Shown in pieces: positions 56,349 through 58,770 of a stretch of DNA of 64,000 bases. The position numbers and the translations under genes are program-made. The DNA comes from Bacteroidaceae bacterium. Lineage in GTDB: Bacteria > Bacteroidota > Bacteroidia > Bacteroidales > Bacteroidaceae. The notes below the pieces were generated by a model, which saw only the letters and a list, made by a program, of their open reading frames with translations, had not been told where the DNA came from and made no database searches. Each line of letters opens with the position of its first letter. Within the stretch, counting starts at the first letter, position 1. The stretch lies in contig JAFTNZ010000030.1 of NCBI GenBank assembly GCA_017451645.1, positions 1-64,000 of the forward strand, in the 5' to 3' direction.

Positions 56349-56376
56349 CAACCGAATTAAAGAAAAACGACGAATT

Positions 56377-56454
56377 ATGCGCATAGACATCATAACCGTA
56401 TTGCCCGAGATGATTGAAGGGAATAAACTCAAAAAACATTTATGGAGGATATAA
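56377..56454 (+). pseudogene. Truncated trmD 5' end (first 15 codons) fused to foreign sequence
   Basis: The first 15 codons ([15 protein letters not shown]) equal those of intact trmD at 58084, with four synonymous changes; 11 bases before the ATG are also the same. After GGG the frame continues [10 protein letters not shown] and stops. The ATG of the following GIY-YIG-like gene lies inside this frame (56442), so translation of the leader could feed the cargo gene. Confidence 0.88.
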
Positions 56455-57002
56455 ATAAAACATTCACTATTCAATGGGTTGGTCCTTTCCATTCTCTAAT
56501 GGAAATGAATCAATATCTTGGAAATACAGAAACTTGTGACGAAGGACTTTTTAGTTTTTATTACTTCTGTGGAAATAAAAAAGGAAAAGGTCATAAAAAG
56601 AATTACTTTTATAGGTATTTTGGGATACATAAAAGAATTGATAGTATTAAAATGCGATTACAAAGCAGGCATGAACATTTTCGTGATTTCATTGAAAATG
56701 AAAATTTAGACATCTGGATTGGAACCTTTGCTTGTGAAAAGAATCAGATGGAACAAAATATCGAAGATGTAGAAACGTTATTTATTTCTACATATGGTGA
56801 TTATCTGACCGAGAATGATCGGAAAAAGAATAGTATTCCTAGAGAATCTATTTGTATTATTAATTTATGGTATAAGGAATCAGAAAATCAACAATGGATA
56901 AGGAAGAAACCAAGTATTAATTTCTTTCATGATGTATTAATTTATGAGAAAGAGTTTAATCAAATATTAGTAGCAAATCTAACTCAAATAAAGAATCAAT
57001 AA
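56442..57002 (+). CDS. GIY-YIG-like nuclease-fold protein (cargo at trmD)
   Basis: 186 residues, AT-rich. The order FSFYYFCG ... YFYRYFGIHKRIDSIKMRLQSRH ... WIGTFA ... DVETLFISTYGDYL is compatible with a GIY-YIG fold (paired Tyr, then Tyr-x-Gly, Arg/His and a Glu), but no family name comes to mind. It begins within the truncated trmD leader and would use the trmD promoter. The region behind it (57003-57249) has no gene. A DNA-cutting role is an inference from fold only. Confidence 0.5.
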   Translation: MEDINKTFTIQWVGPFHSLMEMNQYLGNTETCDEGLFSFYYFCGNKKGKGHKKNYFYRYFGIHKRIDSIKMRLQSRHEHFRDFIENENLDIWIGTFACEKNQMEQNIEDVETLFISTYGDYLTENDRKKNSIPRESICIINLWYKESENQQWIRKKPSINFFHDVLIYEKEFNQILVANLTQIKNQ

Positions 57003-57249
57003 TGAAATCGAATAATTCAATATTATCGTTGTCTTGGAAGTAAGAACGTTAAAGAGATTGTGGAAGACAAAGCTTCGATTCGGTAAGGGCTGTTTTTATA
57101 ATGTTGTGATAATAATCTTATTTTCTTCTCAAAGATGCCAAAATTGAGCGAAATCCCCTGTGTATAGCAAACTTTTTGTTTGGAAATACTGTAAATCACA
57201 GAAAAAATATTATCTTCGCATCTTATTTAATAATTAATAAATAGAATAA

Positions 57250-58065
57250 ATGAATAATGCAGATTTTTGGTCATCAGTGAATGCCATTGTGGAAGCAAAC
57301 TTCACAACTGAAGGTCTGCAAAAACTTGACCGTTATGCAGAACAATTCATTAGTGGGCAACTTGTTTATAAACGATTTTCACCGATTGAACAGCATGGCT
57401 GCGCAGCGGGAGGTTCGACACATGTCATTGCAACCCTACTCGCGGGAGCAGAAACTGAAACAGATAACAGCTCTTCGGGAATCTCGGATTTCAAAAGAAG
57501 CCTCCAACGCGGAGAGAAACAAGCTGAAAGGATAGAACGTTGGGCTAAGGCTGTAGGAGTATGGATTGAAAATGTGGAGACTTCTCTATCAAGTGATTTG
57601 GGAGAGCAAATTGCGGAAGGCGGGGAAGCTGTGGTTTACGATCATGGTGCAACGTTGGTAAAGTCGATAGGGTTGGATTATTTCATAGAACCCATATTGG
57701 CATTGGATCGCATATCTTTGCATAACGCGTATTTCCCTGAAACTCGCTTGACTGTCCTCGGATTTGGAAGAACAGCAAGTGGTGATTTTCGTGTCATAGT
57801 GGAGCAGCCTTTCATCAAAGGCGAACGAATGGAGGAAGATGAGATTGTAGAACACATGAAGAATTTGGGATTTGAATTGCGTAATCTTCGTAACTGGACA
57901 TATTCTACTCCTGAGGTTTATCTTAGTGATATTCATGATGAGAATATCATTCGCTCGCAAACGGGGAATGTGTTTGTGATAGACTGTGATATACGAATAA
58001 ACACTCCGGATTTGAAATCAGGTGGAGTTCGCAATTTGATAACAGAAGTAGAAATAGATACATAA
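57250..58065 (+). CDS. Polyvalent-protein-kinase-like protein (cargo at trmD)
   Basis: 271 residues. Residues 120-250 look like a minimal kinase-type fold: glycine-rich GGEAVVY (124-130), K138 in ATLVKSI, an Arg/His-rich helix, DIHDEN at 227-232 as catalytic loop and D245 in VIDCDIR as the metal-binding Asp. This matches the putative polyvalent protein kinase domain found on Bacteroides mobile elements and phages. The N-terminal 115 residues are helical and may be a separate processing or targeting part. A weak box TATCTTCG at 57211-57218 may be its promoter. It ends 18 bases before trmD. Confidence 0.6.
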   Translation: MNNADFWSSVNAIVEANFTTEGLQKLDRYAEQFISGQLVYKRFSPIEQHGCAAGGSTHVIATLLAGAETETDNSSSGISDFKRSLQRGEKQAERIERWAKAVGVWIENVETSLSSDLGEQIAEGGEAVVYDHGATLVKSIGLDYFIEPILALDRISLHNAYFPETRLTVLGFGRTASGDFRVIVEQPFIKGERMEEDEIVEHMKNLGFELRNLRNWTYSTPEVYLSDIHDENIIRSQTGNVFVIDCDIRINTPDLKSGGVRNLITEVEIDT

Positions 58066-58083
58066 GATATTGAACGACGAATT

Positions 58084-58770
58084 ATGCGTATAGATATCAT
58101 AACTGTATTGCCCGAAATGATTGAAGGGTTTTTCAACTGCTCTATCATGAGTCGGGCGCAGAAGAAAGGGTTGGCAGAGATTCATTTGCACCATCTTCGC
58201 GAATATACTCTCGATAAGCATCGTCGCGTGGACGACTATCCGTATGGCGGGTGTGCCGGCATGGTGATGCAGATTGAGCCGATTGACCGTTGTATTTCGA
58301 TGTTGAAGGAGCAGCGTGATTACGATGAAGTCATCTTCACTTCGCCTGATGGCGAACAGTTCAACCAACGGATGGCAAATACACTTTCCCTTTCACAAAA
58401 TCTTATCATTTTATGCGGACATTTCAAGGGTATTGATTTTCGCATCCGTGAGCATCTGATAACGAAAGAAATCAGCATTGGTGATTATGTCCTTACGGGT
58501 GGTGAATTGGCCGCTGCCGTAATTGCTGATTCTATTGTTCGAATCATCCCTGGAGTCATTTCTGACGAGCAGTCAGCTTTGTCAGATTCTTTCCAAGACA
58601 ATTTGTTGGCGCCACCAGTCTATACCCGTCCGGCTGAATACAAAGGTTGGCGTGTGCCCGATGTGCTTCTTTCCGGTCACGAAGCCAACATTCGTGACTG
58701 GGAGCTTCAGCAAGCCATTGAGCGGACTAAGCAACTTCGTCCCGATTTGTTGGAGGGAAGTGGGTGGTAA
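58084..58770 (+). CDS. trmD: tRNA (guanine37-N1)-methyltransferase
   Basis: Makes m1G37 in tRNAs reading CNN codons, preventing frameshifts; essential in most bacteria. The trefoil-knot motif [16 protein letters not shown] and [15 protein letters not shown] are clear; 228 residues is the family length. No -7 box is seen in the 18 bases after the cargo gene, so expression probably depends on promoters within or before the inserted genes. The first 15 codons are duplicated at 56377. Confidence 0.96.

Follow-up and report, generated by a model that had tools for sequence, protein, structure and literature searches.

Two copies of the start of trmD occur in a 64,000-nucleotide stretch of DNA from a Bacteroidaceae bacterium (contig JAFTNZ010000030.1; the whole stretch is called the window below), and two unrelated small genes lie between them. 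This arrangement raises the question whether the small genes arrived as a site-specific element, or whether the two starts are alleles of different origin that were brought together by recombination.

The first copy, here called the stub (56366..56421, + strand), consists of 11 bp of leader and 15 trmD codons. The second (58073..58128, +) comprises the leader and the first 15 codons of the intact trmD gene (58084..58770, +), which encodes 228 amino acids (PF01746, E=1.5e-56). In a pairwise comparison, 52 of 56 positions were identical, with a longest exact run of 16 bp, and the similarity stopped sharply at both edges. The four differences (CGC/CGT, GAC/GAT, ACC/ACT and GAG/GAA) are all synonymous and all in third codon positions, just as the original prediction had described them. 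Past codon 15, the stub continues into unrelated sequence as an ORF of 25 codons, which ends at 56454 and overlaps the start of the next gene; at the joint, 56421/56422, there is no sequence in common with the other trmD copy. The predicted placement of the stub behind a trmD-type promoter also held. The putative native promoter and leader (56311..56376, +) are of the type found in the genus relatives G005 and G002, with 98% identity to both over 81 bp. Further to the left lies ligA, the gene for NAD-dependent DNA ligase (54265..56271, -; Pfam DNA_ligase_aden and others), which is divergent from trmD.

A DNA search with 56340-56421 matched 10 of 15 genus genomes; the five without a match include genomes in which trmD is present and more diverged. 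Each of the nine matching relatives had one copy of the trmD start and this assembly had two, making it the only one of the ten with two. The original prediction had suggested a search for other cargoes between two trmD starts, and among the ten matching genomes there were none besides this one. A second start was likewise not found in 80 genome-contig trmD loci, nor in 12 long genus stretches containing a trmD start, and there was no third copy in this assembly, which is 72.6% complete with 2.97% contamination. Chance similarity of trmD starts was rejected. Across 111 trmD loci, the best ungapped upstream match was at most 31/56 (L002-L032 with flanks of up to about 1.5 kb upstream, and the 80 genome-contig loci with about 0.26 to 8 kb). 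Among 13 long stretches from the genus, one of which (L125) is without a trmD start, the next-best match near the start was at most 32/56.

The first cargo gene (56442..57002, +) encodes a protein of 186 amino acids and the second (57250..58065, +) a PolyVal-type kinase. The latter matched PF18762 (Kinase-PolyVal) with E=3e-45 and 154.5 bits at a cut-off of 27, in agreement with the predicted polyvalent-kinase-like gene. The lower GC content expected for the cargo was found as well (28.0% for the 186-aa gene and 42.4% for the kinase gene, versus 47.2% for trmD and 52.0% for ligA). The 186-aa protein had no Pfam match above cut-off, no NCBIfam, PADLOC or PDB match, and one PHROG match with E=0.36. 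Its conserved residues in a four-sequence alignment resemble what we take to be a GIY-YIG motif. Genes for homologs with 57-58% identity stand in the same row as an Mrr-type restriction nuclease gene in G276 and G402, which makes it plausible that the protein is a nuclease in defence. As originally noted, no integrase was present among the ORFs of the insert, according to the ORF list and Pfam. An IS element or transposon is not supported: the cargo is without transposase, and the repeats (56 bp, 93% identical) are not short identical target repeats. The kinase gave no match in plasmid, phage and viral-contig collections, and neither the GIY-like gene nor trmD had relatives in viral contigs.

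Judging from position, the native trmD promoter has plausibly been taken over by the cargo. It would now serve the 186-aa gene, perhaps with translational coupling via the 25-codon stub ORF. The trmD gene would be read from the kinase side, either from a promoter in the cargo or by read-through, as seems necessary in G014.

In G014, a gene whose product is 93% identical to the kinase at the amino acid level lies immediately upstream of trmD. The left neighbour is different there, the trmD start is single and there is no stub. Homology of the kinase region to G014 starts at about 57096. It is uneven: the first 300 nt of the kinase (57246-57545) are 95-97% identical to G014, and identity then falls from 93 to 82%. 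This segment also outscores the flanking DNA (about 80-88% to G014), indicating a mosaic within the cargo. The original prediction had turned on the existence of relatives with an empty site and a single trmD start, and G005 is such a case, with 105 bp between ligA and trmD. Other DNA lies between the two genes in G002, G004, G006 and G011. In six of these seven genomes (with the window genome and G014), the gap exceeded 400 bp, and in 45 of the 54 genome-contig loci with ligA placed it measured 65-260 bp. No integrase was noticed in the seven longest ligA-trmD gaps of other species when the first 60 residues of the ORFs were inspected by eye. As a location of the kinase, the trmD site is common to the window and G014 only; other close kinase homologs are found at unrelated loci.

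Several other repeats were seen in these regions. In G014, the promoter-like region of the kinase occurs again after trmD, before another small gene (L119, 11260-11337 and 12897-12974; 79 bp, 78%). Near-identical genes for 153-aa proteins stand in tandem upstream of ligA in L105 (2371-2832 and 3009-3470). The intergenic sequence at 49039-49301 of the window gave several repeated matches in genus relatives, which points to a short array of repeats.

The two trmD starts belong to two allele types. The stub was identical to the trmD start of G014 (56/56), and the second copy was of the G006 type (55/56 to G006), as was the intact gene (95.3% nucleotide identity). At informative sites, where G005 and G002 are alike and G006 is different, promoter and stub together had 17 G005/G002-like and 1 G006-like positions, and the intact trmD had 5 and 23, respectively. 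Ancestry thus switches across the insert (17:1 left versus 5:23 right, Fisher p=2.7e-7), and the allele at 58084, whose grouping the original prediction had proposed to determine, falls with G006. By these counts, the insert is placed on a breakpoint between two sources. The gene ligA was mixed (38 G005/G002-like and 25 G006-like sites), and at the pyrD end the initial 295 bp favoured neither ancestry (6:8), so that the mosaic is finer than a single event would make it.

Fourfold-site identity to G006 was 81% for ligA, 87% for trmD, 89% for pyrD and 94% for pyrK, compared with 26-52% for most sampled genes and 27% for the gene at 63215-63988. The latter two of the four, which we take to be pyrD/pyrK-type genes (60072..61747, -; 88.6% and 94.2%), form the right part of the similar region. 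From these identities, the ligA-trmD-pyrDK block is one that was exchanged between species. High fourfold-site identity to G006 was also seen at some other loci (in L200, L206 and L210).

Scars of like geometry are present elsewhere in this genome. A scan of 1.17 Mb, or 47% of the assembly, revealed two further clear ones, at dapA and catalase, making three with trmD. In the former, the 3' end (52527..52586, -) of an intact gene at 52520-53413, presumably of dapA type, is repeated as a stub beyond the cargo (51710..51769, -; 60-bp repeat, 95%). The cargo gene between them encodes a 231-aa protein without Pfam match (51802..52497, -) and is absent from the corresponding place in G005, G014 and G011. 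At the catalase gene (L210, G000:C11), the 3' 423 bp are repeated with 95.3% identity (13523-13945 and 16698-17120) around a cargo of 2.75 kb, in which two small genes accompany one for a DUF4062 protein. In G012, catalase runs straight into the sequence that follows the stub in L210. The raw count of the gene-end scan was 10 hits in this genome, several of which are one repeat counted twice; relatives gave 10 hits in 350 kb (G006), 5 in 281 kb (G005) and 5 in 386 kb (others). The same scan gave no hit in 1.12 Mb from the 80 trmD loci. Three further short matches of 42-47 bp were also noted in this genome.

Repeats of this kind could be decayed duplicates or alleles. Of the substitutions in the six coding repeat pairs, 30 were synonymous and 13 fell in nonsynonymous codons, an excess with p=9e-10 against an expectation of 25% synonymous and p=0.007 against 50%. 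It came mainly from trmD (4 to 0), dapA (5 to 2) and catalase (15 to 5); L169 (4 to 5), L119 (1 to 1) and L189 (1 to 0) added little. The prevalence of synonymous differences and the identity of the trmD stub with a living G014 allele make most of the copies look like alleles from different strains rather than decayed duplicates.

We also inspected the surroundings of cargo homologs. Nine full-length close kinases, window included, were compared; G277 (contig edge) and the fragments L152-L156, L158, L159 and L313 were left out, and L314 is the same place as L297. Five of the nine had a diverged direct host repeat flanking the cargo, with a length of 56 bp in the window, 171 bp in G301, 58 bp in G187, 41 bp in G408 and 178 or 203 bp, according to the alignment, in G260. 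The right copy began 7 bp after the cargo stop in the window, 14 bp in G260, 4 bp in G187 and 19 bp in G408. In G301, where the frame has an earlier stop, it lies 7 bp past the stop that follows the homology. The repeated segment differed among the five loci: besides the trmD start, it was once a promoter region, once a terminator region, once the end of an HU-type gene and once a short-gene end together with a terminator and a promoter. For the G260 kinase, an empty site was not found; matches were on the lipB-side sequence, and the left side was not conserved.

We called a repeat tight if the left copy was within 400 bp and the right copy within 60 bp. Tight repeats were found at 3 of 9 close kinases by the first stop, or at 4 of 9 with G301 measured from the end of homology (Fisher p 4e-5 or 6e-7). 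They were absent at G014, G181, G273 and G442, and the window kinase falls outside the definition, because the other cargo gene intervenes; with that first cargo gene included, it is a fifth positive. Distant kinases had tight repeats in 4 of 25 cases (p 5e-5; L115 and L160 left out at contig edges), AAA_14-DUF4143 ATPases in 5 of 27 (p 4e-6; 30 loci minus L335 and L337 without ORF and L350 at an edge), and GIY-like loci in 0 of 12 (p 1; L139 left out at an edge), compared with 3 of 627 control ORFs of this genome, one of them the dapA cargo. The control set contains core genes, so the enrichment may mark recent acquisition rather than these families. The ATPase count refers to the ORF over the domain, and the longest ORF likewise gave 5 of 27. 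The positive ATPases are L329, L332, L339, L347 and L354, of which L339 and L354 share a contig and have a terminator-like hairpin as the repeated sequence. The family is multi-copy: this genome has 15 matches and G014 has 29. Among the 15 control hits of one control scan (ten scanned), four were DUF4143 ATPases, and in several others the repeated sequence is of low complexity or REP-like. An ATPase of this family also lies near ligA in G014 (L119, G014:C16, complement of 4434-5750), and 4 bp past its stop there is a 107-bp copy, 96% identical, of the end of the preceding DUF6078-type gene.

We consider it probable, at roughly 0.6, that recombination joined two trmD alleles here and that the structure is not a site-specific element. 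The recipient would have been a chromosome with an empty ligA-promoter-trmD locus of the G005/G002 type, and the donor a related lineage with the cargo already upstream of a G006-type trmD. One end of the incoming DNA would have been anchored through homologous recombination in trmD-pyrDK, where trmD sites are G006-like (23:5) and fourfold-site identity to G006 is 87-94%. The other end would have been joined without homology behind codon 15 of the resident trmD. Promoter and 15 codons of the resident gene would be left as the stub, followed by the cargo, and the incoming trmD allele would be the working gene. Donor sequence left of 56421/56422 was not found, and the GIY-like homologs in G276, G402 and G271 had nothing in common with the window upstream of about 56430-56441. 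It is by inference that we regard this joint as illegitimate, the joining as one-sided (homology-anchored at one end, illegitimate at the other) and the left side as resident. Of the two origins considered in the original prediction, allelic recombination with a donor strain is upheld by the match of the two starts to two allele groups of relatives, the ancestry switch across the insert and the block exchanged between species.

Some observations fit this account poorly. According to the accessible part of PMC5361080, experiments put the frequency of illegitimate joining several orders of magnitude below that of ordinary recombination. Such rarity sits uneasily with the presence of repeats at 4-5 of 9 kinase loci and with right copies that begin so soon after the cargo stop, and the 79-bp promoter-like repeat around kinase and trmD in G014 lies outside what a recombination joint explains. 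The frequency of repeats and the closeness of the right copy keep in play an unknown cassette mechanism that inserts single small genes with duplication of about 40-420 bp of host sequence; later allelic recombination would then have put the G006-type allele into the intact trmD copy. We regard this as unlikely, yet worth keeping in view. Tight repeats at 3/9 (4/9 with G301) close kinases, 4/25 distant kinases and 5/27 DUF4143 ATPases, with 0/12 at GIY-like loci, against 3/627 controls argue for it, as do right copies only 4-19 bp past the stop in the window, G187, G408 and G260 and 7 bp in G301. However, the copies differ mostly at synonymous sites, as alleles would, and the trmD stub equals a living G014 allele. 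The core genes in the control may reduce the enrichment to a mark of acquired genes, and 5 of 9 close kinases (window, G014, G181, G273, G442) are without a tight repeat. It is to the same degree doubtful that Bacteroidaceae possess an undescribed, integrase-free insertion of single genes (PolyVal kinases, AAA_14-DUF4143 ATPases and others), in which the cargo would come to lie just behind a host promoter or gene end, bounded by a diverged copy of 40-420 bp. If they do, cargo and neighbour would both stay expressed, and trmD would stand out as the case with an essential gene's start inside the copy.

The remaining explanations are less probable still. Integrative elements that restore a gene end leave the target gene intact and the cargo between direct repeats, and SXT-type elements at prfC supply the 5' end of their target anew, with the old start left behind. 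A non-autonomous island that brought a new trmD start of its own and relied on a site-specific recombinase supplied in trans, the other origin considered in the original prediction, would give just such repeats around the cargo and an intact target. We nevertheless think it quite improbable and dropped this part of the prediction. The insert is below 2 kb and without integrase, there is no third trmD start in the assembly, and the G014 kinase adjoins trmD with a single start. Close kinase homologs occupy different, unrelated targets and so are without site specificity, and the kinase is unmatched in plasmid, phage and viral-contig collections, as trmD is without relatives in viral contigs. The two-sided ancestry switch and the like scars at dapA and catalase are further differences from SXT. 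Even less weight goes to a circular molecule with the cargo and a fragment of the trmD start, integrated by a single RecA crossover of the Campbell type without integrase. It would yield cargo between direct repeats of different alleles, but it predicts outer flanks of one ancestry, and the observed flanks differ; the 56-bp shared segment, in which exact runs do not exceed 16 bp, is also short for RecA. It is hardly more credible that two strains were joined into a chimera in a metagenome-assembled genome. Incompleteness and contamination of the assembly (72.6% and 2.97%) and the two allele types present speak for a chimera; on the other hand, the joint at 56421/56422 does not fall on sequence in common with the other trmD copy, and G014 provides an independent instance of the kinase-trmD side.

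A recombination joint between two alleles has relatives among described processes. In homology-facilitated illegitimate recombination, known experimentally, foreign DNA enters with one end homologous and the other end illegitimate (PMC3240628, accessible part). The trmD case is likewise one-sided by our reading, but it is deduced from genome comparison and leaves the stub of an essential gene. In effector-immunity arrays of Vibrio cholerae, an arriving module takes the place of the resident gene, of which a fragment persists; the authors suggest a one-sided anchor for this (PMC5361080, in excerpt). Those arrays leave immunity genes; in cases of the trmD type, the start or end of a core gene flanks an unrelated single-gene cargo. 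Deletion-coupled insertions in Haloquadratum similarly place foreign DNA between syntenic genes by an unresolved mechanism, and repeat-bounded indels there have repeats of 4-20 bp (PMC3119063); long diverged repeats as at trmD are not described in the accessible part of that source. Integrase-poor hotspots carry changing cargo between core genes that show elevated homologous recombination (PMC5635113, accessible part). The trmD locus shares with them the position of the cargo and the lack of an integrase in the insert, and adds a gene-end stub as a mark of the event, which the accessible text on hotspots does not describe. A search of open papers turned up no report of this footprint.

Many hotspots of gene gain are without integrases, and their turnover is unsettled, as stated in the accessible part of PMC5635113. 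Leftovers of this sort also lie next to other small acquired genes in related gut bacteria, an indication that uptake of such genes is through recombination rather than by a dedicated integration enzyme. With a diverged end of the adjacent core gene or promoter beyond the cargo as a readable scar, events could be counted and polarised, and sometimes the donor lineage named. The trmD case indicates that foreign genes can occupy the place behind the promoter of an essential gene and leave the gene itself intact.
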